DNA of 20,286 bases from a virus, in IMG/VR virus record IMGVR_UViG_3300009182_002684, positions 1 to 20,286 of that record; one strand, 5' to 3'. The notes below the pieces were generated by a model that did no database searches, was not told where the DNA came from, and saw nothing but the letters and a program-made list of their open reading frames with translations. The position numbers were made by a program, and so were the translations under genes. How positions within the stretch are numbered: the stretch's first letter is position 1; each line of letters opens with the position of its first letter. This document shows positions 2,213 through 20,286 of the stretch, piece after piece.

Positions 2213-4870
2213 TTGAGTTATGTAGATGCATTATATGATCGTGAACACGATCGAATTCATGTAGTAGAAAGGATCGACGGCGAAAGAGTTTATAAAGAAT
2301 ATCCCGCCGATTATATTTTTTATTATAATGATCCAAGAGGTAAATTTACATCAATCTACGGCACACCGGTAGCTCGTTTCTCCACTCGCAATAGTAAAGA
2401 ATTTCGTAAAGAAGTAGCTATACAAAAAGGTAAACAACTTTACGAATCTGACATCAATCCAATCTTCCGTTGCTTAGAAGAAAATTATAAAAATAAAGAT
2501 GCTCCAGAACTCCATGCGGCATTCTTTGACATCGAAGTAGACTTCCACAAAGAGAAAGGTTTTTCTCCCACAACGGATCCGTTTAATGCTATTACTGCTA
2601 TTTCTGTTTACTTACAGTGGTTGGAACAATTAGTCACACTAGTTATTCCACCCAAGCATATGAGCATGGAAACTGTCAAGGATATTGCTCGAGATTTTGA
2701 AAACTGTATTGTGTTTGATAAAGAAGAGGATATGTGTAAAACATTCCTAGACTTAATCGAAGACGCAGATGTTATTTCTGGTTGGAACTCAGAAGGCTAT
2801 GATATACCTTACACAGTAAATCGTATCAAGCGAATACTATCAAAAGATGATACCCGCAGATTTTGCTTGTGGGGACAATTTCCTAAAGAGCGTGAGTTTG
2901 AGCGTTATGGTGCTACTAGCACAACCTATGACATAGTAGGTCGCGTACACATGGATTATATGCAACTGTATCGTAAGTACACTTACGAAGAGCGTCATAG
3001 TTATTCATTAGATGCTATTTCTGAATATGAATTAGGCGAAAGTAAAACACAGTACGAAGGCACCCTGGATCAGTTATATAATCAAGACTTTAAACAGTTT
3101 ATCGTGTATAATAGACAAGATACATTGTTGTTAGACAAGTTAGATAAAAAACTACGCTTCTTGGAATTGGCCAATGAACTGGCCCACGCCAATACTGTAT
3201 TGTTAGCAACTACCATGGGTGCGGTAGCTGTTACTGAACAAGCTATTATTAACGAAGCACATGAGCGTGGGCTTGTTGTACCTAATCGCAAACAAAGATT
3301 AACAGACGATGATACTGCGGCCGCTGGTGCGTATGTTGCCTATCCTAAAAAAGGTGTACATGAATGGGTAGGCGCTGTGGATATTAACTCTTTGTATCCT
3401 AGTGCTATCCGTGCGCTTAACATGGGAATGGAAACTGTAGTAGGCCAGCTACGACCTATTATGACCGATCGATATATTAATGATATTGTTAATAAAGGCA
3501 AGACTTTTGCGGCGGCCTGGGAAGGTGTATTTGCCACATTAGAATATACTGCTGTCATGGAACAACAGCGTGGTACTGAGATCACTATAGACTGGCAAGA
3601 TGGTGACAGTACCGTACACAGCGCCAGCGAAATATGGACCATGATCTTTGACAGCAATCAGCCATGGATGTTAACTGCTAATGGTACTATTGTTACTTAC
3701 GAGCGCAAAGGTGTAGTCCCAGGATTGTTAGAACGTTGGTATGCCGAGCGTAAAGAATTACAAGCTAACAAAAAATCAGCCAAAGATAAAAAAGAAGAGG
3801 CATTCTGGGATAAGCGACAGTTAGTTAAAAAGATTAATTTGAATAGTTTGTATGGTGCTATTTTGAATCCACATTGTCGTTTCTTTGACAAACGCATCGG
3901 GCAGTCGACTACACTAACCGGTCGTAGTATTGCTAGACACATGGCAGGCTATATCAATGAATGTGTATTTGGTATTAAAGACCACTTAGGTGATGCTATT
4001 ATCTACGGCGATACTGATTCGTGTTATTTTACTGCTTGGCCTGCTATTAAAGATGAAGTCGCTAACGGTAATATGGCTTGGAGTAAAGAAACTTGTATCC
4101 AACTCTATGATAGTATTGCGGATCAAGTAAATGAATCATTTCCAGCATTTATGGAGCAAGCATTTCATTGTCCAAGAGAAGCTGGCGAACTTATTAAAGC
4201 AGGCCGCGAATTAGTAGCGTCAAACAGTTTGTTTATTACTAAAAAACGTTATGCTGTATTAATTTATGACTTAGAAAATAAACGCCTTGATGTTGACGGC
4301 AGTCCAGGTAAGATCAAAGCCATGGGACTAGATTTAAAGCGTTCAGATACTCCTAAAGTTATTCAAGACTTCCTAAGTGAAATATTACAAAAAGTATTAA
4401 CAGGCACTAGTCGCGAAGACATCATCGAGCGGATTCGTGAATTTAAATATGGATTCGCCGAAAGACCAGCATGGGAAAAAGGTACTCCTAAACGGGTAAA
4501 TAATCTAACCAAATACGGTGCTGCCGAAGAACGCGAAGGCAAAGCCAATATGCCAGGGCATGTTCGTGCGGCACTTAATTGGAATAATATGCGCCGTATG
4601 AATGGCGACAATTATTCTATCGCTATAGTAGATGGTATGAAAACTATTGTGTGTAAATTAAAATCAAATCCGTTGGGTTGGACAAGTATTGGTTATCCTA
4701 CTGACGAGCAAAGATTACCCGATTGGTTTAAAGAATTGCCATTTGATGATGCGTTGATGGAATCAACTATCGTAGATCAAAAGATTGATAATCTATTAAG
4801 TGTATTGGATTGGGATTTGGCTGCGGCTACTAATACAGAAAATACCTTCCAGTCATTATTTGAATTCTAA
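2213..4870 (+). CDS. 43: Family B replicative DNA polymerase with 3'-5' exonuclease (T4 gp43-like)
   Basis: This enzyme copies the phage genome and proofreads. At 885 residues it is close to T4 gp43 (898). Exonuclease motifs are FDIEV (D106, E108), GWNSEGYDIPY (residues 190-200) and YNRQD (D303). Polymerase motif A is DINSLYPS (D390), motif B is KKINLNSLYG (539-548) and motif C is YGDTDS (D600, D602), so both active sites look intact. The start is TTG with GGAGA (2203-2207) before it; no in-frame ATG occurs near, and the Shine-Dalgarno supports TTG. A CCG (2191-2193) can pair with CGG (2202-2204) next to the Shine-Dalgarno. T4 gp43 represses its own translation through a hairpin at this place, but the pairing here is too short to claim it. 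The clamp gene follows after an 83-base spacer. Confidence 0.97.
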   Translation: MSYVDALYDREHDRIHVVERIDGERVYKEYPADYIFYYNDPRGKFTSIYGTPVARFSTRNSKEFRKEVAIQKGKQLYESDINPIFRCLEENYKNKDAPELHAAFFDIEVDFHKEKGFSPTTDPFNAITAISVYLQWLEQLVTLVIPPKHMSMETVKDIARDFENCIVFDKEEDMCKTFLDLIEDADVISGWNSEGYDIPYTVNRIKRILSKDDTRRFCLWGQFPKEREFERYGATSTTYDIVGRVHMDYMQLYRKYTYEERHSYSLDAISEYELGESKTQYEGTLDQLYNQDFKQFIVYNRQDTLLLDKLDKKLRFLELANELAHANTVLLATTMGAVAVTEQAIINEAHERGLVVPNRKQRLTDDDTAAAGAYVAYPKKGVHEWVGAVDINSLYPSAIRALNMGMETVVGQLRPIMTDRYINDIVNKGKTFAAAWEGVFATLEYTAVMEQQRGTEITIDWQDGDSTVHSASEIWTMIFDSNQPWMLTANGTIVTYERKGVVPGLLERWYAERKELQANKKSAKDKKEEAFWDKRQLVKKINLNSLYGAILNPHCRFFDKRIGQSTTLTGRSIARHMAGYINECVFGIKDHLGDAIIYGDTDSCYFTAWPAIKDEVANGNMAWSKETCIQLYDSIADQVNESFPAFMEQAFHCPREAGELIKAGRELVASNSLFITKKRYAVLIYDLENKRLDVDGSPGKIKAMGLDLKRSDTPKVIQDFLSEILQKVLTGTSREDIIERIREFKYGFAERPAWEKGTPKRVNNLTKYGAAEEREGKANMPGHVRAALNWNNMRRMNGDNYSIAIVDGMKTIVCKLKSNPLGWTSIGYPTDEQRLPDWFKELPFDDALMESTIVDQKIDNLLSVLDWDLAAATNTENTFQSLFEF

Positions 4871-4953: not shown

Positions 4954-5676
4954 ATGCGTGATCATCTTTTAGACTTAGTTTCACATACTTTTGACTTGGG
5001 CAGTATTGAACAAGTTCGTGTAGTTGGCACTGATGCCGAAACAAAAATCTTTGGTAAAGCCGAAGATAATTCTATTATTGTAGAAGGCACAACAATCAAC
5101 CCAGTGCCAGAATTTATTGGCACATTTGGTATGCCAAACTTAGCTAAACTTAAAATTCTTTTGAACTTACAAGAGTATAAAGAAGATGCTACTTTGGCTA
5201 TTAATCGCAAAGACACTGGAGCTCCGGATCAATTAAACTTCGCGAACAAATCTGGCGACTTTAAAAATTCATATCGCTTCATGGCAGCCGAAGTTGCCAA
5301 TGAAAAAATTAAAACTGTCAAATTCAAAGGTGTTAAGTGGAATATCGAATTTGAACCAAGTGCGGCCGCTATTCAGCGTTTAAAAATGCAGGCTACTGCT
5401 AATAGCGAAGAAAACAATTTCCAAGTTAAAGTAGAAAATGGAGATCTAAAGTTCTTCTTCGGTGATCATAGTACACACGCTGGTAACTTTGTATTCCAAC
5501 CAGGTGTAACTGGTACATTAGCAAGAGCTTGGAGTTGGCCAGTTAAAGCTGTCATTGGAATCCTCGATTTGTATGGTGATAAAATCATGCGTATTAGTGA
5601 TGAAGGTGCGGCTCAGATTGTTGTTGATACTGGACTTGCTGTTTATTCTTATATCCTACCAGCACAATCTAAATAA
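4954..5676 (+). CDS. 45: DNA polymerase sliding clamp (T4 gp45-like)
   Basis: The product is 240 residues, close to the 228 of T4 gp45. Gp45 forms a trimeric ring that tethers the polymerase and, in T4, also activates late transcription. It shows the alternating strand/helix layout of the clamp, with INPVPEFIGTFGMPNLAKLKILL (about residues 48-70) and a C-terminal half ending in a beta-rich IVVDTGLAVYSYILPA strand. The start has a good AAAGGAAA site and its own promoter. In T4, regA, 62 and 44 lie between 43 and 45, with 43 after 45; here 43 is followed directly by 45, and no clamp loader is in the window. The identification rests on size, fold pattern and position beside gp43. Confidence 0.85.
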   Translation: MRDHLLDLVSHTFDLGSIEQVRVVGTDAETKIFGKAEDNSIIVEGTTINPVPEFIGTFGMPNLAKLKILLNLQEYKEDATLAINRKDTGAPDQLNFANKSGDFKNSYRFMAAEVANEKIKTVKFKGVKWNIEFEPSAAAIQRLKMQATANSEENNFQVKVENGDLKFFFGDHSTHAGNFVFQPGVTGTLARAWSWPVKAVIGILDLYGDKIMRISDEGAAQIVVDTGLAVYSYILPAQSK

Positions 5677-5679
5677 TAG

Positions 5680-7362
5680 ATGAGCCAAGACAATCTCACT
5701 AACAAACAATCTGACTATGCTGTGTTCTTGCCAGCATTGTCAGGTTTTTTTGGAACCTACATAGGCAAACAGCGTGGCGGACAGTATGTCGAGCAAGCTC
5801 GCATGCCAAAGAATATCCAAGATATGGAAATGCTCAACTGGCTTAATGCTCAGAAAGGTCTATTCACATATAAATGGAGTTTGTATTCCGCAGGCCATGC
5901 AAACCTAGATCTTAGTAAGCAAGATTGGAACGAAGACATGATTCGTAATCGAGATCGTGCTAATACTTTTGTCTTAGGCGACTCGGGTGGATTCCAGATT
6001 GGTAAAGGTGTGTGGGAAGGTGAGTGGCGTGACCCTAATGGAGCGGAAGTAAAAACTAAAATGGCCGAAGCTATCGCCAAGGGTATCGAACATGTTCCAT
6101 CGTTGAAACCAGATGGTACACCTAAGCATGACAAAAACGGTAATACAAAATATACTAAAATTGATCATGTAAAAGAATATCAAGCTAAGTTAGATGCGGC
6201 GCAGAAAAAGCGTGAAGCAGTATTAAAGTGGATGGATGGTATCATGGATTATGGCATGGTACTCGATATTCCAGCTTGGGTCGAACGCAGTCCTGTTGGT
6301 CGTAAAGCTACTGGTATCGAAAGCTATCAACAAGCTGTAGAAGCTACAAAATATAATAACGAATACTTTATTGCCAATCGTAATGGTAACTGTAAGTTCT
6401 TAAATGTATTACAAGGCGAGAATCACGCACAAGCGGAAGATTGGTATCAGCAGATGAAACATTTCTGTGATCCAACAAAATATGGTAATAAAGCATTTAA
6501 TGGTTGGGCCATGGGCGGTCAGAATATGTGTGATGTAGACTTAGTATTACGCAGACTAGTCGCATTAAAATTTGATAACTTGTTACAAGAAGGACAGCAT
6601 GATTGGATGCACTTCTTAGGTACAAGTAAATTAGAATGGGCACTATTATTAACTGACATCCAACGAGCTGTACGCAAGTATGTCAATCCAAATTTTACTA
6701 TTAGTTTTGATTGTGCTAGTCCATTCTTAGCAACTGCTAATGGACAAGTATACCATCAAGTTGATATACAGGATCGAGGTAAATGGTGTTATCGTATGAG
6801 TGCTATTGTGGACGATAAGAAATATGCCGCCGACACACGCAAATTTAGTACTGCTGTATTACAAGATAAATTAATACATCACTTTGATGATAGTCCTGTT
6901 AGTGATAATTTAGAAATTAAAGACATTTGTTATTATGCGCCTGGTATGCTTAACAAGATTGGCAAGGAAGGTAAAACTAGTTGGGATTCATTTTCTTACG
7001 CATTGCTCATGGCACATAATGTCTGGTTACACTTAGAATCTGTACAAAGAGCTAATCGTGAATACGATGCTGGCAAATGTCCTAATATGTTAGTACAAGA
7101 TAATTTTGATGTCATATATTTTAAAGATATAGTAGAAGCTATATTTGCGGCTCCTGATCGCGAAACAGCTATTGCTATCATTGATATGTACGATAAATTC
7201 TGGCAAGCTATTCCTGGAACTAGAGGCTATACTGGTAAACGAACTGTTAATGCTAGTACTAACTTTAACAATCTGTTCGAAACAGTTGAAGAGGAAGAAG
7301 AACAACATCCTATTGATGACTCTGGATTCGATGAATCTAAACTAGATGCGTTGGAAGCATAA
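5680..7362 (+). CDS. dpdA: DpdA-like DNA 7-deazaguanine transglycosylase (TGT family)
   Basis: TGT-family enzymes exchange guanine for a 7-deazaguanine; the phage DpdA branch does this in DNA. Motifs are DSGGFQ (D101-Q106), GWAMGG (275-280, matching the GLAVG loop of TGT), FLGT (312-315, matching LGVGT), ISFDCASP with D344 at the nucleophile position of TGT, and ALLMAHNVWLHLESV with H446-N447 at the conserved HN helix. At 560 residues it is much longer than tRNA TGT (about 375). An inserted Lys-rich segment lies after DSGGFQ (about 115-185), and the tail is acidic. The CxCxxC zinc motif of tRNA TGT is not visible, although H446 matches its zinc-binding His. The start lies three bases after the clamp stop without a Shine-Dalgarno, so coupled translation is likely. 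FolE and QueD downstream support the call. A tRNA substrate is the less likely alternative. Confidence 0.85.
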   Translation: MSQDNLTNKQSDYAVFLPALSGFFGTYIGKQRGGQYVEQARMPKNIQDMEMLNWLNAQKGLFTYKWSLYSAGHANLDLSKQDWNEDMIRNRDRANTFVLGDSGGFQIGKGVWEGEWRDPNGAEVKTKMAEAIAKGIEHVPSLKPDGTPKHDKNGNTKYTKIDHVKEYQAKLDAAQKKREAVLKWMDGIMDYGMVLDIPAWVERSPVGRKATGIESYQQAVEATKYNNEYFIANRNGNCKFLNVLQGENHAQAEDWYQQMKHFCDPTKYGNKAFNGWAMGGQNMCDVDLVLRRLVALKFDNLLQEGQHDWMHFLGTSKLEWALLLTDIQRAVRKYVNPNFTISFDCASPFLATANGQVYHQVDIQDRGKWCYRMSAIVDDKKYAADTRKFSTAVLQDKLIHHFDDSPVSDNLEIKDICYYAPGMLNKIGKEGKTSWDSFSYALLMAHNVWLHLESVQRANREYDAGKCPNMLVQDNFDVIYFKDIVEAIFAAPDRETAIAIIDMYDKFWQAIPGTRGYTGKRTVNASTNFNNLFETVEEEEEQHPIDDSGFDESKLDALEA

Positions 7363-8273
7363 TGAAAAGTCTTATAATTGGAATGAGTATTGGTCAGTTA
7401 TACAAACAAGTATTAACTGAACTTGAACATCATGTTGTCACTGTGGATTTAGATCCTGATAAACACGCCGATTACATGGATGTTGAAACTGCGGTAGCAG
7501 AACATACTTGTTTTGATACTGTTCATATTTGTACTCCAAATTTTACACACGAAGATATTGCCAGACAAGTAGCAGAACATAGTCGCATTGTGTTTATTGA
7601 AAAGCCAGGATTAGAATCAGCGTTAGCATGGTACAACTTAGTAACTGATTATCCCAGCACTCGTTTTATGATGGTCAAGAATAATCAATACAGAGAAAAT
7701 ATTGCAGTATTGACACAGTTGGCGCACAAGGCCAAAATTATTAATTTAACTTGGAATAATAATGATCGTGTACCCAATCCAGGAACATGGTTCACTAATC
7801 GAGAATTAGCATATGGTGGAGTTAGTAGAGATTTACTACCACATTTGTTGAGCTTGTTCCAATCATTATCTGGATTCAGCTATGATCAAGCCAAACTGAC
7901 TAATCAAGTAGCAGAAAAATTTTGGTCTTTGCCCGAGTTAACTCAAACGGATTACGGTCGCGTGGATCCCAATGGTGTATACGATGTAGACGATCAAGTA
8001 GAATTAGATTACACTGATACACATGGTTGTCACTGGGTTATCGAAGCCAATTGGCGTACATTGACTGACGATGATCGTAGCATTTTAATGACATTCGAAG
8101 ATGGTAGTCATTATTATTATGAACTAGGACTTTGTCCAGAAGATGCGTATAAACGCATGATTAGTACAGCAATTGAAATGTATCACACACAGGCGTTTTG
8201 GGATCTACAATTAGAATTAGATGTATGGATTCATAAAACTATCGAAAACATTGACATTTACGAGTTAGTATGA
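7362..8273 (+). CDS. Gfo/Idh/MocA-family NAD(P)-dependent oxidoreductase
   Basis: The 303-residue product has a short Rossmann start (SLIIGMSIGQL, residues 3-13), the VHICTPNFTHEDIA loop (54-67), the family EKP motif (E80-K81-P82) where K81 is the usual catalytic lysine, and GGVSRDLLPH (152-161), matching the GGG...D...H motif with H161 as candidate acid/base. These enzymes oxidise or reduce sugar or cyclitol carbons. The start overlaps the dpdA stop by one base (TAATG), and the next gene starts in ATGA overlap, so it is translated in the same chain. The substrate cannot be read from sequence. A role on nucleotide-linked sugars or on a modified base side chain is inference. Confidence 0.8.
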   Translation: MKSLIIGMSIGQLYKQVLTELEHHVVTVDLDPDKHADYMDVETAVAEHTCFDTVHICTPNFTHEDIARQVAEHSRIVFIEKPGLESALAWYNLVTDYPSTRFMMVKNNQYRENIAVLTQLAHKAKIINLTWNNNDRVPNPGTWFTNRELAYGGVSRDLLPHLLSLFQSLSGFSYDQAKLTNQVAEKFWSLPELTQTDYGRVDPNGVYDVDDQVELDYTDTHGCHWVIEANWRTLTDDDRSILMTFEDGSHYYYELGLCPEDAYKRMISTAIEMYHTQAFWDLQLELDVWIHKTIENIDIYELV

Positions 8274-9160
8274 GAGTAAGATTATTATCCACTGACGGCC
8301 AAGGTTCGTTTAGTGAAAGTATGTGGATTAAACCTGGAATAGCCCAAGACGAAATTGAAGTCAAGGCAGTGATGACTGGAGTATGTCGTTCGGACATCGA
8401 TATGATGCTAGGCAATTTTGGTCCACTGCCAATACATATGAGCGGGCATGAAGGTCTGGGTCAGGTAACCGAGATTGGTTCCGAGATCAAAGATGTGGCA
8501 GTTGGAGACTATGTTGCTACCCGCGGTGAACCAGCTTATGCAGATTACTATAATGTTAGACATGGCGAATATGTACAAGTTCCAGAAGCTCATCCCCGTT
8601 ATATTTTAGAACCTGTGGCCTGTGGAATCAATTGTGTCAATCAAGCATATAGCGAAATTGATAAACGAGCAGATGGGCGTTGTTTAATTATTGGTAGCGG
8701 ATTCCTTGCGTGGGTAGTTTACAACAATCTTCAACATGAATTTGAAGACTTGGAGATTGATGTTCTGGGCCGTAGTAATTCAGAACTATTTGGTGGCGCA
8801 CTTACTTACAAGCCCGAAAGCACTTATGACGTTGTAATCGATTTAGGATCAGGCACAGAAGTATTTGACCAGCCAATTCTAAATAATGAAGCCTTGATTG
8901 TGTTTGGAGTGGAGAAAACGGTTACTACAAACTTTGCTAACATACTTTGGAAATCTTGTACAATGACATTCCCAAGTCCACGTAATAGTAAATTTATCAT
9001 GTCGATGATGGAAGCCCGTTATATGATCGAAAACGGCTTACTTGATGTTGACAAATTCTGGACAAAGTGTTATAATCGTAATACAGAGTGGCAGAAAGCG
9101 TTTGCGGATGGTAAGGACCGTCCAAACGGTTACAGTAGAGGTTACATCAAGTGGGACTAA
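8270..9160 (+). CDS. Zinc-type alcohol/polyol dehydrogenase, medium-chain family
   Basis: The 296-residue product has a GroES-like N-terminal domain with TGVCRSD (C39, the catalytic zinc Cys), SGHEGLGQVTEIGSE (H60, E61) and VGDYV (79-83), then ILEPVACGINC (112-122). The cofactor loop is GSGFLA (142-147). The four-Cys structural zinc lobe usual near residue 90-110 is absent, and the protein is short for the family (about 340-350), the cofactor domain being trimmed. The family oxidises secondary alcohols of sugars and polyols. Pairing with the Gfo/Idh enzyme just upstream (4-base ATGA overlap) suggests consecutive redox steps on one substrate. The substrate is unknown. Confidence 0.8.
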   Translation: MRVRLLSTDGQGSFSESMWIKPGIAQDEIEVKAVMTGVCRSDIDMMLGNFGPLPIHMSGHEGLGQVTEIGSEIKDVAVGDYVATRGEPAYADYYNVRHGEYVQVPEAHPRYILEPVACGINCVNQAYSEIDKRADGRCLIIGSGFLAWVVYNNLQHEFEDLEIDVLGRSNSELFGGALTYKPESTYDVVIDLGSGTEVFDQPILNNEALIVFGVEKTVTTNFANILWKSCTMTFPSPRNSKFIMSMMEARYMIENGLLDVDKFWTKCYNRNTEWQKAFADGKDRPNGYSRGYIKWD

Positions 9161-9669
9161 ACACTGAAGAACGACAAGGCGTAGTTTATTTTACAGGCTA
9201 CGAAGTCGAACATACTATTTGTTATGGTATGAAAACTTTGTTTGTAGTAGGCACACCCGACTACAAAGAAATTAAAAAAATGGCAGGATTACACAGTTGT
9301 AATCATATCTACTTTGGTACTAGTCAAAGTTTTAATCCAAAAGAAATATCACAATCAGAATATAAACCTTGGGACAATGTTATTGTCTCGGCGCTTAAAG
9401 ATGATTTTTGGGTCACATTAGATTTTGACGTTAAGCACACAGAGGGTATTCACGAATCTGGTTATTGTGAATATGAAAAATTTGTGCCGATGATCAGTGT
9501 TAAACTTCCTTACATCAAACAGTTTAACTATAATGCTACACTTAAACTTGATGATTTAACTTGGGGCAAGACTAATCCTGGTGTATGGACTCATCAGTTA
9601 CACGATTTGATGGATATAAAGACTTATACCCACTGGGCTCAGTATACCCAAGACGAGGAAATTAAATGA
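9151..9669 (+). CDS. Uncharacterised phage protein, 172 residues
   Basis: The start is GTG 9151, inside the last ten bases of the dehydrogenase gene, with AGAGG (9137-9141) before it. The product alternates short hydrophobic strands with polar loops: TLFVVG (about 29-34), HIYFG (51-55), WVTLDFDV (88-95) and MISVKLPYIKQFNYNATLKLDD (about 113-134). This repeating strand pattern would fit an alpha/beta or small barrel fold. It has few Cys and no radical-SAM CxxxCxxC, so it is not an obvious QueE. I do not recognise the family. Its place between the oxidoreductases and the other small genes of the dpdA chain suggests a shared role. Confidence 0.75.
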   Translation: MGLNTEERQGVVYFTGYEVEHTICYGMKTLFVVGTPDYKEIKKMAGLHSCNHIYFGTSQSFNPKEISQSEYKPWDNVIVSALKDDFWVTLDFDVKHTEGIHESGYCEYEKFVPMISVKLPYIKQFNYNATLKLDDLTWGKTNPGVWTHQLHDLMDIKTYTHWAQYTQDEEIK

Positions 9670-9965
9670 TACCAAGATCTTGGAGACTTGCTATATTAAA
9701 CTGGCTTGGTGCTGGTTACATGACTATTAGTAAAGACGACGATTATGAGGCGACAAGTATTGGAATTGATTCTATGGCGCCAGAGATTGATGTCACTGGT
9801 TTATCGTTCAATGTTATGTCAGCACAAGGCGGCACTATTGTACAACTTCGCAAGTATGATGACAAACTTAGTTGTAATCACTACAGCACACATATTATCG
9901 CCGAAGGACAAGATGTAGCAGAAAATATTGGTAAAATCGTAGCAATAGAACTTTGGAAGGCTTAA
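9666..9965 (+). CDS. Uncharacterised small phage protein, 99 residues
   Basis: The ATG sits in a 4-base ATGA overlap with the preceding stop. The product has a short hydrophobic N-terminus (ILNWLGAGYM, about residues 10-19), then a beta-rich middle (ITGLS-type strands, GGTIVQLRKYDDK near 54-66) and a helix-forming end (DVAENIGKIVAIELWKA). No catalytic motif is visible. I have the impression that similar small proteins occur in other marine T4-like phages, but cannot verify this. Coupled translation within the dpdA chain is the best clue to its role. Confidence 0.7.
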   Translation: MIPRSWRLAILNWLGAGYMTISKDDDYEATSIGIDSMAPEIDVTGLSFNVMSAQGGTIVQLRKYDDKLSCNHYSTHIIAEGQDVAENIGKIVAIELWKA

Positions 9966-9966
9966 T

Positions 9967-10440
9967 ATGGAACAGCAAAGACAACAAGCATTAGCAGACC
10001 AAGCTAATCGTATTATGGAAAAAGCAGAGCGTAAAATTTGGTGTACGTTCCGCAAAGAAGGAATACATAAATACCCAGCGGCAGCCACAGATCCTAACTT
10101 GTGTACCGCAGGAGAATATGATGTATCGTTTCTTGCTAGTCCTCATAGGCACATTTTTCATTTCCGGGTGTGGATCGATGTTTTCCACAATGACCGGTGT
10201 ATTGAATTCATCCAATTCAAACGATGGCTCGAGAATCTCTATTCCTCCAATAACAATAATTCGAGTTCCGTTTTAGAACTAGATTGGAAGTCTTGCGAAA
10301 TGATCGCAGACGACTTGTATATTCAAATAGCCGGCAGGTATCCTGATCGCGCTGTGTGGATTGAAGTGGCCGAAGATGGCGAGAACGGCTGCCTCATTAA
10401 GTATGAACTTTCTCGTCCTAACCTAAGTTTTAAATATTAA
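9967..10440 (+). CDS. Uncharacterised protein, possible T-fold (QueD/QueF-like) relative
   Basis: The 157-residue product starts with a charged helix, followed by GEYDVSFLASPHRHIFHFRVWIDVF (about 50-74). Next come CIEFIQFKRWLENLY (about 78-92), a Ser/Asn linker, a helix (KSCEMIADDLYIQIAGRYP) and a strand ending in VWIEVAEDGENG. Strand-strand-helix-helix-strand order with a late Glu in IEVAED is the layout of T-fold enzymes (FolE, QueD, QueF). The CIEF..FK.WLE segment also loosely resembles the QueF CVESKSLKLYL motif. The QueF Cys/Asp and QueD zinc His sets are not clearly present, so enzymatic function is not claimed. AAGG (9957-9960) precedes ATG 9967, one base after the previous stop. It is a real gene; the fold call is speculative. 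Confidence 0.7.
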   Translation: MEQQRQQALADQANRIMEKAERKIWCTFRKEGIHKYPAAATDPNLCTAGEYDVSFLASPHRHIFHFRVWIDVFHNDRCIEFIQFKRWLENLYSSNNNNSSSVLELDWKSCEMIADDLYIQIAGRYPDRAVWIEVAEDGENGCLIKYELSRPNLSFKY

Positions 10441-10449
10441 GGAAACAAA

Positions 10450-10671
10450 ATGGGTAAGCCAGTTTACAAACCCAGCCCCAGGGCTTTAGCAGTACACGAT
10501 GACTTAACTAAATTTTTAGATTTTTGTGTTGATTTTGGTTATCGTTTTAACGAAGGCGACTTGTATAATTTTAAAAGTTATGCTTGGCAACAATACAATA
10601 AATTTGTTCAAGGCAAAAATGCCAAGAACATGTGGGCTGAAGATGCACGTCGTTTAGGCAGACCAATTTGA
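10450..10671 (+). CDS. Uncharacterised small basic protein, 73 residues
   Basis: AGGAAA (10441-10446) precedes ATG 10450. The product is mostly helical by composition and rich in Lys, Arg, Tyr and Phe, with no membrane segment or cysteine cluster. Its stop overlaps the TTG start of the glycosyltransferase gene (TTGA), keeping the translational chain unbroken. I do not recognise the family; the basic character would allow nucleic acid or partner-protein binding, which is a guess. Confidence 0.65.
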   Translation: MGKPVYKPSPRALAVHDDLTKFLDFCVDFGYRFNEGDLYNFKSYAWQQYNKFVQGKNAKNMWAEDARRLGRPI

Positions 10672-11723
10672 CAGTTTTTCTAATTGACTTAGAAGCAGTT
10701 CCAACCAGGTACACGGGTCAGTGGAAGACTCATGTACCTGCTTTACTTGAAAAGGAAGGACACAATGTCAAAATTATCTCTGGGCCTGAAGATGTTCCTC
10801 AAGCCACTACTCCTGGTGCTTTTCTTAATTTTGGTGGCACCAATATATATAAGTCTCGTCAAGTTGAAGAAATTAGCCGACTATTTTGCGCCGGAGCAGT
10901 TAGCCCTAATGATCACTTTATTTTTACTGATGCTTGGCACCCTGGCGTCATAAATTTAAAGTATATGAGTGAACTGTTACAGATTCCTGTAACTATACAC
11001 GGACTATGGCATGCTGGTAGTTATGATCCGCAAGACTTCTTAGGCAGACTTATTGGCGATAAGCCTTGGGTAAGACACGCAGAAAAGAGTTTTTTCTTTT
11101 CGTTCGATCATAACTACTTTGCTACAAAATTTCATATCGATATGTTTGCTCGCAATTTATTCGATACTTACGATGACGGCACCAATCCTTATGTGACACA
11201 AACAGGATGGCCAATGGAGTATATGGTAGATGAATTAGCGCCATATAAAAATTTACAAAAGCGTGACTTAATACTATTCCCACATAGAATCGCTCCAGAA
11301 AAACAAGTAGATATTTTTCAAGATCTAGCAAGCAGATTGCCACAATATGAATTCGTTGTTTGTCAGGAAAAAGAATTAACTAAACATGAATATCATACAT
11401 TGTTAGGCCAAGCTAAAATTGTGTTTAGTGCTAACTTACAAGAAACGCTAGGCATTAGTTGTTACGAAGGTGCATTATTAGATGCTATACCAATGGTCCC
11501 AGATCGATTATCATACAGTGAAATGTATCAAGATCATTTTAAGTATCCAAGTATATGGACTGAAAATTATCAAACATACGATACATATCGGTCTGAGCTT
11601 TGCAATACTATTATAGAAGATATCGAAACATACGAAACTAGGGTTCCGTGGATCAAACAACAAGCTGAAACTTTGTCTAAAGAGTTCTTTTCGGCTACTA
11701 ATCTATTGAAAAATATAACATAA
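10668..11723 (+). CDS. GT-B glycosyltransferase (GT4-like)
   Basis: The 351-residue product has two Rossmann-like halves. The N-terminal acceptor half includes AFLNFGGTNIYKS (51-63) and IPVTIHGLWHAGSYD (106-120). The C-terminal donor half begins at DLILFPHRIAPEKQVDIF (200-217), where the RIAPEK segment fits the donor-phosphate loop. It continues to FSANLQETLGISCYEGALLDAIPMVPD (253-279), which holds an E-x7-E motif (E259, E267) typical of GT4 enzymes. The start is TTG, overlapping the previous stop. It closes the dpdA-led chain, and a new promoter begins four bases after its stop. Donor and acceptor are unknown: a modified DNA base, a virion protein or a host surface glycan are all open. Confidence 0.85.
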   Translation: MTVFLIDLEAVPTRYTGQWKTHVPALLEKEGHNVKIISGPEDVPQATTPGAFLNFGGTNIYKSRQVEEISRLFCAGAVSPNDHFIFTDAWHPGVINLKYMSELLQIPVTIHGLWHAGSYDPQDFLGRLIGDKPWVRHAEKSFFFSFDHNYFATKFHIDMFARNLFDTYDDGTNPYVTQTGWPMEYMVDELAPYKNLQKRDLILFPHRIAPEKQVDIFQDLASRLPQYEFVVCQEKELTKHEYHTLLGQAKIVFSANLQETLGISCYEGALLDAIPMVPDRLSYSEMYQDHFKYPSIWTENYQTYDTYRSELCNTIIEDIETYETRVPWIKQQAETLSKEFFSATNLLKNIT

Positions 11724-11726
11724 CCT

Positions 11727-11755
11727 TTGACTTAGACCTAAATAACCTATATAAT
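11727..11755 (+). promoter_or_regulatory. Near-consensus sigma70 promoter giving a leaderless transcript
   Basis: TTGACT (11727-11732), a 17-base spacer and TATAAT (11750-11755) start four bases after the glycosyltransferase stop. Transcription should begin at about 11761-11763, which coincides with the ATG at 11762. The spacer GACCTAAATAACCTA matches those at 1821 and 4895. It should drive the folE unit. Confidence 0.8.
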
Positions 11756-11761
11756 AACTGT

Positions 11762-12178
11762 ATGACACTCGACGAACAATTTGAACGCATGACTTCTAAT
11801 AAAGAAGAACACACTCGTTTATACGAATCTGACAATTTGTATATTGTTTGGGCGATTAAAAAAGATGATCCTAAGTTAGAAGGTTTTATTAATAGTATTG
11901 ACAAAGAATACTATAACTGGCGTTCTACGCTTAATGGAACTAGTAAACGAGATTCAAAACTTGCTAACGCAGAAACTGAAAATTTAGAAGTCCGTGGGCA
12001 TATCTATAGTGTTACTAATGAGCAAATGGATATGTTTGAAAAAATTGCGTTGATGCCGTCAATGAAGTATGGATATAGATTTGAAAAATATGATGTAAAT
12101 GGTATTAAAGCTAAAGAGCAACAAGAAATAATGGAAGTATTAAAAGAGGAAACTAATGGGGAATCCAACACCGCCTGA
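11762..12178 (+). CDS. Uncharacterised acidic/basic helical phage protein, 138 residues
   Basis: The product is highly charged and mostly helical, with RLYESDNLYIVWAIKKDDP (about 19-37) the only strand-like stretch and a Glu/Lys-rich end. No known motif is visible. The ATG at 11762 lies where transcription should begin, so it would be translated without a leader. The next in-frame ATG (11789) has no Shine-Dalgarno either. The last 23 bases overlap the folE start, and GAGGA inside this gene (12144-12148 region) serves as the folE ribosome binding site, so the two are probably coupled. Function unknown. Confidence 0.7.
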   Translation: MTLDEQFERMTSNKEEHTRLYESDNLYIVWAIKKDDPKLEGFINSIDKEYYNWRSTLNGTSKRDSKLANAETENLEVRGHIYSVTNEQMDMFEKIALMPSMKYGYRFEKYDVNGIKAKEQQEIMEVLKEETNGESNTA

Positions 12179-12995
12179 TATTTTAAGAAGAGACAGACTT
12201 AACATGACATCATTTACAACTGAAGATAGAAAAAATGCTAGTAAACTAGTAGAAGAAGCCCCGTATCATCCTGGATACGAAGATGCCGTTATAGACCCTA
12301 ACGCAGGTCGTCCATTGAGCGTAGTAATTCGCGAGCGCATGATTGCAGATAAGAAACGCTTCTGGGCTGGAGATAACATTAGCGAATATGTTAACGAACA
12401 AGATAAAAAACAACTTATCAACGAAGCAACTGAAGCATTTGAAAAAGTATTAGACACTTTATTAATTGATCGTGCGTATGATCCTAATAGTCACGGCACA
12501 GCCCGGCGACTGGCTAAGATGTATTTTAACGAAATTATGGCTGGACGCTATGACCCTGCGCCAGACTGTACAGCATTTCCAAATAATAGCGAGGATAGAT
12601 ATGAAGGTATGTTGGTTGTACGCAGCGAGTTGCGTAGTATGTGTAGTCATCACCATCAGCCTGTCACTGGTGTTGCCTACATAGGAATCATAGCAGCACA
12701 AAAACTTATTGGTCTCAGTAAGTATACTCGTATTGCTCAATGGTGTGCTCGCCGTGGCACATTACAGGAAGAATTGTGTAACGATATCGCAAAAGAAATC
12801 ATGCGAGCCACAGGTAGTAATGATGTAGGAGTTTACATACAAGCTACGCATGGTTGCTGTGAAAATCGCGGTATCATGGCACATAGCTCATTAACTCAGA
12901 CTACAGTACTTAAAGGCGCCTTTACAACAGACGCTGGTACTAAGAAAGAGTTTATGGATAATATTAAATTACAACAGGACTTTGCCCCAAGATGA
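12156..12995 (+). CDS. folE: GTP cyclohydrolase I (first step towards preQ0)
   Basis: FolE converts GTP to 7,8-dihydroneopterin triphosphate, the substrate of QueD. Family motifs are present in order: RSMCSHHHQPVTG (C163, H165, H166, matching the C-E-H-H zinc/catalytic site), LIGLSKYTRIAQWCARRGTLQE (about 184-205), and HGCCENRG (H232, C234, the second zinc Cys region). At 279 residues it is longer than the bacterial enzyme (about 220) because of an N-terminal extension of about 60 residues. The start at 12156 has AGAGG before it; a second Met at 12204 has only a weak site. In a phage with DpdA and QueD, the natural reading is 7-deazaguanine supply, although folate or biopterin use cannot be excluded. 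Confidence 0.93.
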   Translation: MGNPTPPDILRRDRLNMTSFTTEDRKNASKLVEEAPYHPGYEDAVIDPNAGRPLSVVIRERMIADKKRFWAGDNISEYVNEQDKKQLINEATEAFEKVLDTLLIDRAYDPNSHGTARRLAKMYFNEIMAGRYDPAPDCTAFPNNSEDRYEGMLVVRSELRSMCSHHHQPVTGVAYIGIIAAQKLIGLSKYTRIAQWCARRGTLQEELCNDIAKEIMRATGSNDVGVYIQATHGCCENRGIMAHSSLTQTTVLKGAFTTDAGTKKEFMDNIKLQQDFAPR

Positions 12996-13069
12996 TTAAT
13001 GAATTTTTACACGAAATTTATGTATGGTGGATAATGATTATTGCTTTTATAGAATATCTTTTTTCATAA
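12992..13069 (+). CDS. Tiny single-pass membrane protein, 25 residues
   Basis: The ATG overlaps the folE stop as ATGA. The product is MINEFLHEIYVWWIMIIAF followed by IEYLFS: a short acidic start and one hydrophobic, Trp/Ile-rich segment long enough to cross a membrane. No Shine-Dalgarno is needed if translation is coupled. A second tiny membrane ORF follows at 13080, so the pair may be real. Function unknown; a chance ORF remains possible. Confidence 0.4.
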   Translation: MINEFLHEIYVWWIMIIAFIEYLFS

Positions 13070-13079
13070 GAGTAAAATA

Positions 13080-13184
13080 ATGCTAGAAACGATTGTGGAT
13101 TGGCATAGCATCGCAGGATTAATATTTTTTTGCTTAATAGCTATCTTGCTGATTGAAGATATCATTGTTGGCCTTAAAAAATGA
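13080..13184 (+). CDS. Tiny single-pass membrane protein, 34 residues
   Basis: The product starts MLETIVDWHS and then has a clear transmembrane segment (IAGLIFFCLIAILLI, residues 11-25), followed by acidic residues and a C-terminal GLKK. A weak AAGAG (13068-13072) precedes ATG 13080, and the stop overlaps the start of the glycosylase gene (ATGA). Small phage membrane proteins can be holin-like, antiholin-like or exclusion factors, but nothing here decides between these. Confidence 0.5.
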   Translation: MLETIVDWHSIAGLIFFCLIAILLIEDIIVGLKK

Positions 13185-13612
13185 TACAACCTTTAAGAGA
13201 TGATCTAATGGTTCAACAACAGTTGCCCGCAATCGATAAAGGAAAGTTTAGGATTGCTGCGTGGCAGCACATGGTGGCTGTTATCATGCTGAACCAGACG
13301 GGTCGTAAGCCTGTAAAAACTGTGTTCCCTATCTTTATGCACTATTGGTCTAGCCCGAGCAAATTTGTACGGGCACAGGAACAAGAGGTCAAGGATGTGA
13401 TCTGGAGCCTGGGCATGGTCAATGTGCGATACAAAAGATTAGTTGAAATGAGCTATGATTTTGGGCGTTGGGATTTCGATGATGCTACCAAACTGTATGG
13501 CATTGGCAAATACGGGTCAGACAGTTACGAAATCTTTTTCAAGAACAACTATGCCGTAGAACCAACAGATAAAGAACTAAAGAGATATTTGAAAGAAGAA
13601 GTTTTTGCATAA
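13181..13612 (+). CDS. HhH-GPD DNA glycosylase, MBD4-like
   Basis: HhH-GPD glycosylases remove damaged or mismatched bases; the MBD4 branch removes T or U opposite G. The 143-residue product matches the compact MBD4 catalytic domain. It has VIMLNQTGRKPVKTVFPIF (about 34-52), LGMVNVRYKRL (77-87), the helix-hairpin-helix LYGIGKYGSDSY (105-116, nearly the MBD4 HGIGKYGNDSY), and VEPTDKELKRY (127-136), with D130 at the catalytic Asp position. No Fe-S cluster cysteines are present, as in MBD4. It starts in ATGA overlap with the small membrane ORF. In a phage that replaces guanine it may repair G:T mismatches or act on host DNA; both are inference. The family call is strong. Confidence 0.85.
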   Translation: MIQPLRDDLMVQQQLPAIDKGKFRIAAWQHMVAVIMLNQTGRKPVKTVFPIFMHYWSSPSKFVRAQEQEVKDVIWSLGMVNVRYKRLVEMSYDFGRWDFDDATKLYGIGKYGSDSYEIFFKNNYAVEPTDKELKRYLKEEVFA

Positions 13613-13630
13613 CAGATAAAGGAAAGTAAA

Positions 13631-13855
13631 ATGAATAATGTAAGCATTCTAGCCAATCAGGCTATTGAACGAGCAAAAAATTTACAAGAGTTTGCGGTAT
13701 TCCGTGACATGGAAGATATTGTGTTCTGTGGTAAACCAATCCCTTACAATTTAAATCATGTCATGGGCGAGCAGGTAGAGATCACAGTACCAGCCATTGA
13801 CCAAGAGGAAGCCGAACAACGAGTGAATGTTTGGTTGAAAAGTCAGCGAGAGTAA
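13631..13855 (+). CDS. Uncharacterised small acidic protein, 74 residues
   Basis: A strong AAAGGAAAG (13618-13626) precedes ATG 13631, 18 bases after the glycosylase stop. The product is acidic, has one strand-rich middle (DIVFCGKPIPYNLNHV, about 29-44), and ends in a charged helix with EEAEQRVNVWLK. No motif or membrane segment is recognisable. It is the last gene of the folE unit. Confidence 0.65.
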   Translation: MNNVSILANQAIERAKNLQEFAVFRDMEDIVFCGKPIPYNLNHVMGEQVEITVPAIDQEEAEQRVNVWLKSQRE

Positions 13856-13887
13856 ATAAACACAGCGGTCTTTTGGTGTCATCCCGC

Positions 13888-13916
13888 TTTACAAACTCTG
13901 CCATCTATGCTATAAT
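13888..13916 (+). promoter_or_regulatory. Extended -10 sigma70 promoter for queD
   Basis: TTTACA (13888-13893), a 17-base spacer and TATAAT (13911-13916) preceded by TGC (13908-13910) form an extended -10 promoter. The leader is short and holds AGGAGA (13923-13928) before ATG 13935. Confidence 0.8.
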
Positions 13917-13934
13917 TTAACATAGGAGAAATAA

Positions 13935-14384
13935 ATGGCAAAGTATTATTCAACAAAACACTACGGACACAACATTGGATTAAGTGCGGTATTCCGTCAA
14001 CCTAATGCCGATCATAGCCACTGTCACTTACTTCATGGCTACAGTCTAGCATTCACATTTACTTTTGGATGCGATAAATTAGATGATAAAAACTGGGCAG
14101 TAGATTTTGGTGGGCTCAAGAAACTCAAGGCCTGGTTAGAAGATAATTTTGATCACAAGCTGGCTTTGGATCGAGCAGATCCACACTTGGCTAAGTTCCA
14201 AGAATTAGAAGAATTAGACTTGGCTGAGATTAGAATCTTTGATGGAGTTGGAGCAGAGAAGTTTGCCGAACATGCCTTTAATTTTGCTGATGCGTTAATC
14301 CGAGAAGCAAGTAATAATCGCTGTTATTGTGTAAGAGCAGAGTGTGCCGAACACGGCGCCAATTCTGCTATCTATGAGGGTTGA
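13935..14384 (+). CDS. queD: 6-carboxytetrahydropterin synthase (QueD/PTPS family)
   Basis: QueD converts dihydroneopterin triphosphate into 6-carboxytetrahydropterin, the second step towards preQ0. The 149-residue T-fold protein has CHLLHGYSL (C30-L38, matching C..lHGH), WAVDFGGLKKLKAWLED (54-70, matching viDF..lk), NFDHKLAL (71-78, D73-H74 catalytic pair) and AECAEHGANSAIYEG at the end, with the substrate-binding Glu. Two features are atypical: the second His of the HGH zinc motif is Tyr36, and the usual upstream AAH is replaced by GLSAVF. Nearby H27, H29 and H31 might take over zinc binding. FolE (upstream unit) and DpdA give the pathway context. The family is sure; the exact activity needs care because of the altered metal site. 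Confidence 0.88.
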   Translation: MAKYYSTKHYGHNIGLSAVFRQPNADHSHCHLLHGYSLAFTFTFGCDKLDDKNWAVDFGGLKKLKAWLEDNFDHKLALDRADPHLAKFQELEELDLAEIRIFDGVGAEKFAEHAFNFADALIREASNNRCYCVRAECAEHGANSAIYEG

Positions 14385-15514: not shown

Positions 15515-16450
15515 TTGAATATTACTAAATTATACAAAGCAATCAAAAGAATTAGACGGGCCGAAGAAGTAATTGCAAAAATCTATCCTACAGATAAAAT
15601 TAAAAGTCCAGTACACTTAGGAATTGGACACGAAGCCATACAAGTAGGTATATGCGAAAATCTAGAAAAAAATGATATCGTATTTGGTTACTATCGTAGC
15701 CATCCATTATATCTTGCCAAAGGTGGTGATCTTAATTCAATGATGGCCGAATTATTTGGGAAGATCACCGGATGTGCTAAAGGCTGGGGCGGTAGTATGC
15801 ATTTGGTAAGCCTAGAACACGGTGTTATGTCTACAACAGCCATTGTAGCTTCTAGCATTCCTAACGCAGTGGGCTATGCCTATGCTCTTAAATTACAGAA
15901 TAGCAAACAAGTAGTCGTAAGTTTCTGCGGAGACGGTGCTACCGAAGAAGGTGTCACTTCCGAAAGCTGGAACTTTGCCGCACTACATAAATTGCCAATA
16001 CTATTTGTCTGCGAAAATAACGAGTTAGCTATCCATACTAAGCGTAGTCAACGACAGGCTTCACTAGATATCTGTGGCCGTGCTGAAGCTAACGGAGTTC
16101 CTGCTACGCTTATCGATCAATATAATACAGAAACTATCTATAATATAGCAGGTGAGCTAATAGAAAAAATCCGCGATGGCCAAGGCCCACAGTTTCTAGA
16201 AGTTGTAGCTAGTCGTTGGTTAGAGCATGTTGGTCCTAACGAAGATTTCAAATTAGGATATAGATCCGAGGATGAAGTAACACCATTCCGTGAACAAGAT
16301 GAAATAGAAAGATTAGGCAGTTTGCTTGACCAACAAGTTAAATCTGAAATCGATCAAGAGATTGAAAATGAAATCGATCAAGCAATACAATTTGCTGAAA
16401 GCAGTCAGTTTCCACAAAAAGAGGAATTATTAAAATATGTCTACAAATGA
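15515..16450 (+). CDS. TPP-dependent 2-oxoacid dehydrogenase E1, alpha subunit-like
   Basis: E1 alpha binds thiamine pyrophosphate and, with E1 beta, decarboxylates a 2-oxoacid. The 311-residue product has the conserved VHLGIGHEAIQVG (residues 33-45), YRSHPLYLAKGG (61-72), GWGGSMHL (91-98), and the TPP motif GDGATEEG (139-146) followed 26 residues later by ENN (N168, N169). The start is TTG with no strong Shine-Dalgarno; the next Met is too far inside the conserved fold. It overlaps E1 beta by 14 bases. No E2 or E3 is in the window. An acyloin- or transketolase-like C2 transfer used for an unusual sugar is plausible, but the 2-oxoacid is unknown. Confidence 0.9.
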   Translation: MNITKLYKAIKRIRRAEEVIAKIYPTDKIKSPVHLGIGHEAIQVGICENLEKNDIVFGYYRSHPLYLAKGGDLNSMMAELFGKITGCAKGWGGSMHLVSLEHGVMSTTAIVASSIPNAVGYAYALKLQNSKQVVVSFCGDGATEEGVTSESWNFAALHKLPILFVCENNELAIHTKRSQRQASLDICGRAEANGVPATLIDQYNTETIYNIAGELIEKIRDGQGPQFLEVVASRWLEHVGPNEDFKLGYRSEDEVTPFREQDEIERLGSLLDQQVKSEIDQEIENEIDQAIQFAESSQFPQKEELLKYVYK

Positions 16451-17489: not shown

Positions 17490-18082
17490 AGACAGCATTG
17501 ATTATTGGCGCCAATAGCGACATTGCTAAATCAGCAATGGAATTATTACAAGATGAGTATCATATTGTAGCAGTTGACCGTAAGATTGTTGATTTAGCTG
17601 ATCCCACTAGCGAGTTGCGTATTCATATGGCACTTACTATAGCTGAACCAGATGTTGTCATTAATTGCGCTGGCGTATTTAAAGAAAATGCCGATGCCGA
17701 CTACGACACAACATTTGATGTTAATTTAAAAAGTAATTGGTCCGTGATTAAACATTACATTGACACGCCTCCTAGTAAACCGGTAAAGTTTATTATGCTA
17801 GGATCTAGTTGTTATAATCACGGTCGACGTAATTTTATTTTGTATGCCGCTAGCAAAGCCGCACTATTTAATATGTGGCAGGGTGCTAGTGAATTTGTTA
17901 GTGAAAATTTAAAATTAGGATTAATTAATCCTGTACACGTTCATACTAAAATGACAGCTTTTAGAGTACACCCAAATCCAGATATATGTCTAGAGCCAAT
18001 CGATGTAGCGATAGAGATTAAAAATTTATGTGCTATGACCGAATCTAGATACATAGATATAGATTATAAACGAAAGGATTAA
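17486..18082 (+). CDS. Short-chain dehydrogenase/reductase (SDR)
   Basis: A short classical SDR of 198 residues (typical 250). The cofactor loop is GANSDIA (8-14), a variant of TGxxxGIG. NCAG (60-63), GSS (106-108) and the catalytic YAASK (Y120, K124) follow. The C-terminal substrate part is trimmed. The start is TTG in a TTGA overlap with the E1 beta stop. Following an E1 pair, it could reduce the ketone that such an enzyme produces, a pairing seen in branched-sugar pathways; here that is inference. It is certainly an NAD(P)-dependent oxidoreductase; the substrate is unknown. Confidence 0.85.
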   Translation: MKTALIIGANSDIAKSAMELLQDEYHIVAVDRKIVDLADPTSELRIHMALTIAEPDVVINCAGVFKENADADYDTTFDVNLKSNWSVIKHYIDTPPSKPVKFIMLGSSCYNHGRRNFILYAASKAALFNMWQGASEFVSENLKLGLINPVHVHTKMTAFRVHPNPDICLEPIDVAIEIKNLCAMTESRYIDIDYKRKD

Positions 18083-18083
18083 T

Positions 18084-19807: not shown

Positions 19808-20286
19808 ATGAAAAAAGTATTTTTAACTTGGCAGGATGTTGAAGGTTATTGTCAAGAAATTTTGCGCCAAATTCAACAGGATGCTTGGCTCCCAGATTAT
19901 GTAGTTGGGCTTACTCGCGGTGGGTTAGTGCCAGCTAATCTTATTAGTCAATATTTAAATATCCCAATGGAAACTCTTAAAGTAAGCCTGCGAGATGACA
20001 CTAGTCAACCCGAAAGTAACTTATGGATGGCAGAAGATGCTTTTGGTGATAATGAAAATAACGGCAAAAAAATTCTTATTGTCGATGATATCAATGATAC
20101 TGGCGCCACATTAAATTATATTAAACAAGATTGGCAAAGTAGCTGCTTGTCAACCGACGAGCGTTGGTTAAATGATATTTGGGGTAAGAATGTTCGTGTA
20201 GCGGTATTGTATGATAATGAATCAAGCCAATCAGAGCTTGACATTTCTTATTCTAGTGTTACAATAAACAAAGCTGAAGAAGATCA
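19808..20286 (+). CDS. Phosphoribosyltransferase (type I PRTase, purine-salvage-like), 3' end missing
   Basis: The frame is open from ATG 19808 to the window end (159 complete codons). The PRPP-binding signature ILIVDDINDTGATL is clear, with VDDINDTGAT at residues 92-101. An N-terminal DYVVGLTRGGLVPANLI segment with RGG at 37-39 matches the PPi loop of xanthine/guanine and related PRTases. These enzymes join a purine base to PRPP. The gene has its own strong promoter within a possible operator, separate from the sugar cassette. Guanine or xanthine salvage is likely; handling a deazaguanine base is conceivable but unsupported. The end of the protein, which helps set base specificity, is outside the window. 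Confidence 0.85.
   Translation, partial: MKKVFLTWQDVEGYCQEILRQIQQDAWLPDYVVGLTRGGLVPANLISQYLNIPMETLKVSLRDDTSQPESNLWMAEDAFGDNENNGKKILIVDDINDTGATLNYIKQDWQSSCLSTDERWLNDIWGKNVRVAVLYDNESSQSELDISYSSVTINKAEED

Follow-up and report, generated by a model that had tools for sequence, protein, structure and literature searches.

A jumbo-phage gene module predicted to place a 7-deazaguanine base, possibly glycosylated, in DNA

The IMG/VR virus record IMGVR_UViG_3300009182_002684, analysed here over its complete length of 20,286 bases (the window) and itself a fragment of a freshwater jumbo phage, encodes a 560-residue protein that belongs to the tRNA-guanine transglycosylase (TGT)/DpdA superfamily. Profile comparison, predicted fold and active-site residues place the product of this gene (positions 5680-7362, here termed dpdA) in the superfamily far beyond chance. 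The surrounding module probably encodes a jumbo-phage pathway that swaps guanines in DNA for a 7-deazaguanine base, which a PHROG_17812 protein and a glycosyltransferase would elaborate, possibly by glycosylation. Homology, fold, catalytic residues and gene linkage are what the analysis establishes; from them we predict that DNA is the substrate, which base it receives, what PHROG_17812 and the glycosyltransferase do, and that the phage is thereby protected. A sequence-only reading of the same stretch had proposed that a DpdA-like enzyme, together with phage FolE and QueD, leads to 7-deazaguanine in phage DNA. Homology, fold, catalytic residues, a lost zinc motif and linkage to folE, queD, queE and DNA polymerase that is conserved across several phage lineages all support this proposal.

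Results and discussion

The 560-residue protein is a TGT-superfamily enzyme

The family of the 5680-7362 product comprises 539 relatives on viral contigs. The 13 relatives from named phages all belong to jumbo phages: PA5oct-type Pseudomonas phages, Vibrio phage 2.275.O and Sinorhizobium phage Phosso. When viral contigs were scanned with the PA5oct and Vibrio homologs as queries, nothing was recovered; the Phosso protein recovered two loci.

As a single query, the protein has no sequence match in Pfam, PHROG or the PDB, and a narrow profile of window-type proteins has no PDB match and reaches TGT only at P 0.0019. The TGT signal is obtained only through a wider alignment, in which the window type is combined with Vibrio GR7B, PhiXhv-12 and DpdA2 proteins. 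The profile of this alignment matches 45 PDB sequences at E<=1, every one of which is a TGT (best 0.0013), and its hhalign comparison with E. coli TGT yields P=1.3e-8 with every motif colinear.

Every one of the 36 non-redundant family members keeps DSGGFQ, D196, G246, HxLG and the D344 region unchanged; the position of Q245 varies among relatives (Q, H or S). The residues kept across the wider alignment are D101, S102, G103, G104, Q106, D196, G246, H311, G314 and D344. An AlphaFold2 (AF2) model of the protein has a pTM of 0.70. In Foldseek comparisons of this model with the PDB, QTRT1 (4.8e-5) and arcTGT (2.1e-3) are the top matches, both with probability 1.00, and the rest lie at 0.1 or above. 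Among viral models, the matches include Motura TGT and a protein of the DpdA2 phage nt-1 (4e-4). The TGT motifs noted from the letters alone are thus borne out by invariance, profile, hhalign and Foldseek alike, and structural modelling against TGT and DpdA, suggested in the same reading, points to the same superfamily.

The likely substrate is DNA

The superfamily is common to DpdA enzymes and tRNA TGTs. If the protein were a TGT of the latter kind, the glycosyltransferase would be expected to make a glycosylated queuosine-like tRNA base, raising translation of phage genes. Glycosylated queuosines do occur in vertebrate tRNA. However, none of the 86 window-type proteins has the CxCxxC zinc motif typical of tRNA TGTs, which sets them apart from that group. 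Four aligned DpdA2 proteins lack it as well, whereas E. coli TGT, GR7B and PhiXhv have it. The genomic company of dpdA is equally at odds with a tRNA enzyme, consisting of DNA polymerase, a candidate clamp, primase and helicase, and the window contains no tRNA gene. Table 2 of PMC6884629 lists dPreQ0, dADG and dG+ for the DNA of Vibrio phage nt-1, which carries a DpdA2 relative. Deletion of dpdA in phage CAjan abolishes modification, and no QueA, QueG or QueH homologs were reported in the viruses analysed (both PMC6884629). Because the zinc motif is lost, nt-1 DNA is modified and dpdA sits with replication genes, we infer that the enzyme acts on DNA and not on tRNA; a tRNA-modifying role is improbable.

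Within the superfamily, the window type and DpdA2 are not joined by BLAST. They have motifs in common, an hhalign match of P 2.7e-4 over 43 columns, and a connection through the Vibrio GR7B/PhiXhv proteins, and the window type is probably a sister subfamily of DpdA2. For DpdA3 and DpdA4, no match was found in the records of Campylobacter phage NCTC12673 or HVTV-1.

Position of dpdA beside replication genes

A DNA polymerase lies upstream of dpdA in all 75 loci that reach far enough, and a PHROG_12062 protein precedes it in all 80 that do so. The order of polymerase, candidate clamp and dpdA recurs in PA5oct. In Phosso, dpdA sits with primase and helicase, and in phage 9g (L086 2006-3960) it adjoins a replicative clamp and polymerase, in the opposite gene order.

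That the PHROG_12062 protein is a sliding clamp is plausible, if weakly supported. One of 14 PHROG_12062 members matches the PHROG_223 processivity factor at 6.7e-5, and the annotation in phage Phosso agrees; no PDB match was obtained, and hhalign comparisons with two clamps were negative. The sequence-only reading had placed dpdA directly behind a sliding clamp, without a gap, and had suggested that modification is tied to replication. The adjacency stands, with a 3-nt gap between the two genes, and the recurrence of the arrangement, in phage 9g too, supports the idea of such a tie; the clamp label is to be taken with caution.

Precursor supply ends at 7-carboxy-7-deazaguanine in most relatives

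The first steps of 7-deazaguanine synthesis are represented in the window itself. FolE matches Pfam PF01227 (1.6e-38) and has the metal/active-site motifs C..HH and HxCxxxRG. The QueD-like protein matches PF01242 (2.6e-13) and PHROG_2389 (5e-39) and is of an HGY type common to phages ACP17, BUCT-ZZ01 and PhiXhv. Both genes had been named from the letters alone and are real, the second as a QueD-like gene of this type. Among 20 larger dpdA-bearing viral contigs, many of them truncated, FolE was found in 17, QueE in 16 and a QueD-like protein in 13, and all three are present in the genomes of PA5oct, Vibrio phage 2.275.O and Phosso.

Could folE and queD instead serve folate or pterin supply, with the TGT-like protein using a host-made base? 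FolE is common to folate synthesis (PMC6884629), and the QueD-like protein is atypical in its HGY motif. Yet queE, which has no folate role, accompanies the module in those 16 contigs and three phage genomes, and ACP17 and BUCT-ZZ01 keep queD, folE, dpdA and queE in one stretch. A folate function is accordingly very improbable.

The sequence-only reading had listed QueE and QueC as absent. With regard to QueE, this is an artefact of the cut, since the record ends inside the gene that precedes queE. In sister contig G005, whose dpdA is 89% identical to that of the window, a phosphoribosyltransferase gene (152/159 residues identical to the window's) is followed immediately by queE, identified by TIGR03963 (2.6e-13) and four further QueE models. 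By this comparison, queE should lie ~40 bp past the window end. The G005 QueE (L108 14650-15504) also has a ~36-residue insertion between cluster cysteines two and three (GCNFKC...TGCDSYASW).

For QueC, the claim holds in most relatives, among them PA5oct and Phosso, whose genomes are complete. Searches with PF06508 and with a QueC-like 208-residue protein found no QueC in PA5oct, Phosso, ACP17, BUCT-ZZ01 or a 383-kb relative. Full-length QueC is present in Vibrio phage 2.275.O, 9g and nt-1 (positive controls). A divergent QueC-like protein of 208 residues occurs in two sister contigs; the matches in G005 and G019 are partial, and weaker ones, also partial, fall in other reading frames of G005, G007 and G008. 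The phage-encoded steps thus appear to end at 7-carboxy-7-deazaguanine (CDG) in most of the group, and host QueC could supply preQ0. Because most relatives lack QueC, dPreQ0 cannot be taken as the default prediction.

Vibrio phage 2.275.O represents a QueC/QueF branch without the glycosyltransferase. Its window-type DpdA (L082 16723-20983) precedes an amidoligase-like gene, a QueF gene, one for a transporter of the queuosine-precursor type, QueC and a GATase-like gene.

Two additional genes follow dpdA

The gene list of the sequence-only reading for the interval had overlooked two genes, encoding the glycosyltransferase and the QueD-like PHROG_17812 protein. Each is found <=6 kb after dpdA in 38/38 window-type loci that reach.

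The PHROG_17812 proteins of the window phage and of ACP17, X1, Phosso and RHph_I1_18 are 55-62% identical. In Foldseek, the best PDB match of the PHROG_17812 model is E. coli QueD (E 0.006), and the top matches are QueD/PTPS proteins (E 0.006-0.03). H34, H60 and H62 are invariant and arranged as in the zinc site of QueD; hhalign comparisons with individual QueD sequences gave no match. The protein has no cysteine at the position that is catalytic in QueD, which makes a reaction other than that of QueD plausible. It occurs in lineages where QueC is missing or doubtful. Cui and colleagues reportedly described dCDG and dDG in phage DNA in 2023, and are said to have predicted a CDG decarboxylase, DpdL. 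PHROG_17812 might be a DpdL-like CDG decarboxylase.

Homologs of the glycosyltransferase occur in 19 of 50,697 phage records, and all 19 also carry a DpdA-type gene. These are 11 records of the PA5oct type, Phosso (one), ACP17 (two), X1 (one), and PhiXhv-12/15/16 and Ep032, the DpdA-type match in PhiXhv-12 being full-length; BUCT-ZZ01 was added by profile. The records are not independent, but the gene is spread over seven lineages and three transglycosylase types. The glycosyltransferase adjoins dpdA in PA5oct (directly behind), ACP17 (4-nt overlap) and X1. In Phosso it is part of the folE-queE cluster, two genes before folE; in PhiXhv-12 it is found two genes after a QueC-containing 521-residue frame; and in BUCT-ZZ01 it comes behind DpdA2 and PHROG_17812, two genes from DpdA2.

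Similarity to GT-B enzymes is most apparent for the X1 homolog (8e-12 against Glycos_transf_1), followed by that of ACP17 (2.5e-4), the family being joined by an iterated profile. The window protein itself reaches only 0.059 against this model, and the six weak PDB matches are all glycosyltransferases. No T4 or queuosine glycosyltransferase was matched in Pfam or the PDB, the similarity being of the general GT4/GT-B kind. Homology to QTMAN/GTDC1, suggested by motifs, was considered and dropped, with no Pfam model of that family at E<=10.

In PhiXhv-12 (L144 3819-7053), a frame annotated as amidotransferase that contains QueC, a gene resembling N-acetylglucosaminyl-malate deacetylase and the glycosyltransferase stand in a row. 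This arrangement suggests transfer of N-acetylglucosamine, then deacetylation.

The linkage bears on whether these two genes belong to the pathway at all. In a plain DNA 7-deazaguanine system, preQ0 or CDG would be inserted, with the help of host QueC if needed, and the glycosyltransferase and PHROG_17812 would be chance neighbours concerned with surface glycans or folate. Hosts commonly possess QueC, the window has a nucleotide-sugar cassette, sister contigs have large radical-SAM islands, and some phages have PHROG_17812 beside folE with no DpdA detected. Set against this is the recurrence of the glycosyltransferase near deazaguanine genes in seven lineages, with three DpdA types and in every one of the 38 window-type loci, because of which chance linkage is very unlikely. 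The linkage suggests that the glycosyltransferase belongs to the deazaguanine module. We consider a plain system possible, though rather doubtful.

Proposed pathway

If the module functions as a DNA modification pathway, the reactions likely involve: conversion of GTP by FolE, the QueD-like protein and QueE, encoded just outside the record, to CDG; optional conversion of CDG by PHROG_17812; and exchange of guanine in DNA for CDG or a CDG-derived base by DpdA. PHROG_17812 and the glycosyltransferase may act before or after insertion. In the exchange, which would follow the TGT mechanism, D344 would attack the sugar C1', with D101 as the general acid/base. The glycosyltransferase would add a sugar onto the 7-substituent, so that the final base may be sugar-bearing. 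The freed guanine may be salvaged by the phosphoribosyltransferase, whose gene adjoins queE in PA5oct, BUCT-ZZ01 and the clade of the window. Phage DNA modified in this way would be protected against host nucleases; DpdA systems are known to give protection from restriction.

The most specific form of this proposal is a glycosylated 7-deazaguanine, formed from CDG through a QueC-independent PHROG_17812 branch, inserted by DpdA and glycosylated by the GT-B enzyme. Hypermodification of this kind would be new for phage DNA, a counterpart of glucosyl-hydroxymethylcytosine in T4 and of glycosylated queuosine in tRNA. We advance this version tentatively, as a candidate that falls somewhat short of likely.

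Several observations weigh against the pathway or parts of it. Confidence in the AF2 model is low over the catalytic loops (100-116 and 184-199), and its global TM-scores to TGTs are low, at 0.3-0.43. Profile comparison does not join the window type to the DpdA of phage 9g, giving nothing beyond a local 26-column stretch, and the literature consulted on this point reports no modified base for any phage with a window-type DpdA. The QueD-like protein has HGY in place of the canonical HGH of the zinc histidine triad. Five phages with PHROG_17812 have no detected DpdA of the types examined; one of these, D479, has a partial QueC-like match. Most DpdA2 phages are without the glycosyltransferase, which would therefore be optional. 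Finally, if PHROG_17812 decarboxylates CDG, the resulting bare 7-deazaguanine would lack an obvious handle for a sugar.

Gene order and neighbouring genes

The window's relatives are contigs from jumbo phages and reach lengths of 383 kb. The open reading frames named in the sequence-only reading are found at the positions it gave (Table 1). The family B DNA polymerase gene is followed by those for the PHROG_12062 protein, the TGT-like protein, a MocA-type oxidoreductase and an alcohol dehydrogenase (ADH)-like protein. Then come small genes, including PHROG_17812, the glycosyltransferase, FolE and the QueD-like protein, a nucleotide-sugar and E1-dehydrogenase cassette and the phosphoribosyltransferase. 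Membership of the MocA/ADH pair in the module was considered and not adopted, as PA5oct is without both.

Table 1. Features of the module and its surroundings in the window (aa, amino acid; nt, nucleotide)
Feature	Position	Strand	Remarks
Family B DNA polymerase	2213..4870	+	Conserved neighbour upstream of module
PHROG_12062 protein, candidate sliding clamp (DNA polymerase processivity factor)	4954..5676	+	Directly 5' of dpdA
DpdA-type TGT-superfamily guanine transglycosylase, 560 aa	5680..7362	+	Profile, fold, active-site residues
DSGGFQ	aa 101-106, nt 5980-5997	+	TGT active-site motif
D196; Q245-G246; GG 279-280; HxLG 311-314	aa of the 5680 protein		Motif residues
D344, proposed nucleophile	nt 6709-6711	+	TGT comparison
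Gfo/Idh/MocA-type oxidoreductase	7362..8273	+	After dpdA in 33/38 freshwater relatives; not in PA5oct
Zinc alcohol-dehydrogenase-like protein (N-terminal domain)	8270..9160	+	Same distribution as the MocA-type gene 5' of it
PHROG_17812 protein, predicted QueD-like T-fold, proposed module member	9967..10440	+	Conserved H34, HxH 60-62, E136
GT-B/GT4-type glycosyltransferase, proposed tailoring enzyme	10668..11723	+	DpdA-linked in seven phage lineages
FolE (GTP cyclohydrolase I), step one of 7-deazaguanine synthesis	12156..12995	+	N-terminal extension of ~80-90 aa
QueD-like protein (PHROG_2389, HGY type)	13935..14384	+	PF01242, PHROG_2389
Phosphoribosyltransferase, cut by record end	19808..20284	+	Also adjoins queE in PA5oct, BUCT-ZZ01

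Other genes nearby are less constant. Between folE and queD, positions 13181-13612 encode an HhH-GPD/endonuclease III-like protein of 143 residues, present in just one of 85 relatives. An E1 alpha/beta dehydrogenase pair of the pyruvate/acetoin dehydrogenase type (15515-17489) is not near dpdA in the relatives examined. At 17486-19752, SDR, UDP-glucose-dehydrogenase-like and NAD-epimerase-like genes form the nucleotide-sugar cassette, which could feed a glycosyltransferase. Dense radical-SAM islands, with up to 14 radical-SAM genes per jumbo-phage contig, are found in contigs G002, G017 and G020.

Novelty and implications

That jumbo phages, PA5oct among them, make and incorporate deazaguanine bases was predicted earlier (PMC7824862; reviewed in PMC13282480), and the concept of this modification in jumbo phages is not new. 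What appears to be new is a distinct and abundant freshwater jumbo-phage DpdA subfamily, the QueE at the window edge, the fact that QueC is systematically missing, and two extra module members. Within the literature collection searched, no paper linking a glycosyltransferase to DpdA was found.

If the glycosyltransferase is indeed part of the module, phages would be adding sugars to guanine as they do to cytosine and thymine, and this would affect restriction, CRISPR, type IV nucleases and the sequencing of jumbo phages. Several jumbo-phage genes now called hypothetical would gain annotations. The cultured phages PA5oct, Paride, ACP17 and X1 carry the same genes, making the prediction directly testable.

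Comparison with known systems

PA5oct is like the window in having a homologous DpdA-type protein (32.7% by tblastn, 38% in alignment), FolE, QueE, two PTPS/QueD matches, PHROG_17812, a glycosyltransferase behind dpdA and a phosphoribosyltransferase beside queE. It differs in that no MocA/ADH pair follows dpdA, and folE and queD lie ~54 kb from it.

The DpdA2 of nt-1 and the window protein share the TGT superfamily, the absence of the zinc motif, and the motifs DSGGxQ, DxP, G, HxLG and D. In contrast, a tblastn search with the window protein misses nt-1, and the nt-1 motif reads DSGGLQ where that of the window reads DSGGFQ. Phage nt-1 also has QueC and, according to PMC6884629, ArcS.

Phage 9g, which represents the first DpdA group, resembles the window in carrying folE, queD, queE and a dpdA beside DNA polymerase and clamp. 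Its DpdA, however, has 317 residues and no profile-level similarity to the window type, and 9g has Gat-QueC and dG+.

Acidovorax phage ACP17, Xanthomonas phage X1 and Synechococcus phage BUCT-ZZ01 share with the window folE, queE, a transglycosylase, the same glycosyltransferase, PHROG_17812 and the want of a clear QueC; queD is annotated in ACP17 and BUCT-ZZ01. They differ from it in using DpdA2 rather than the window type, and in their compact, operon-like order.

The predicted role of the glycosyltransferase is comparable to that of the T4 glucosyltransferases, which give glucosyl-hydroxymethylcytosine in T4, and of the queuosine glycosyltransferases: in each case, a glycosyltransferase acts on a modified nucleic-acid base.

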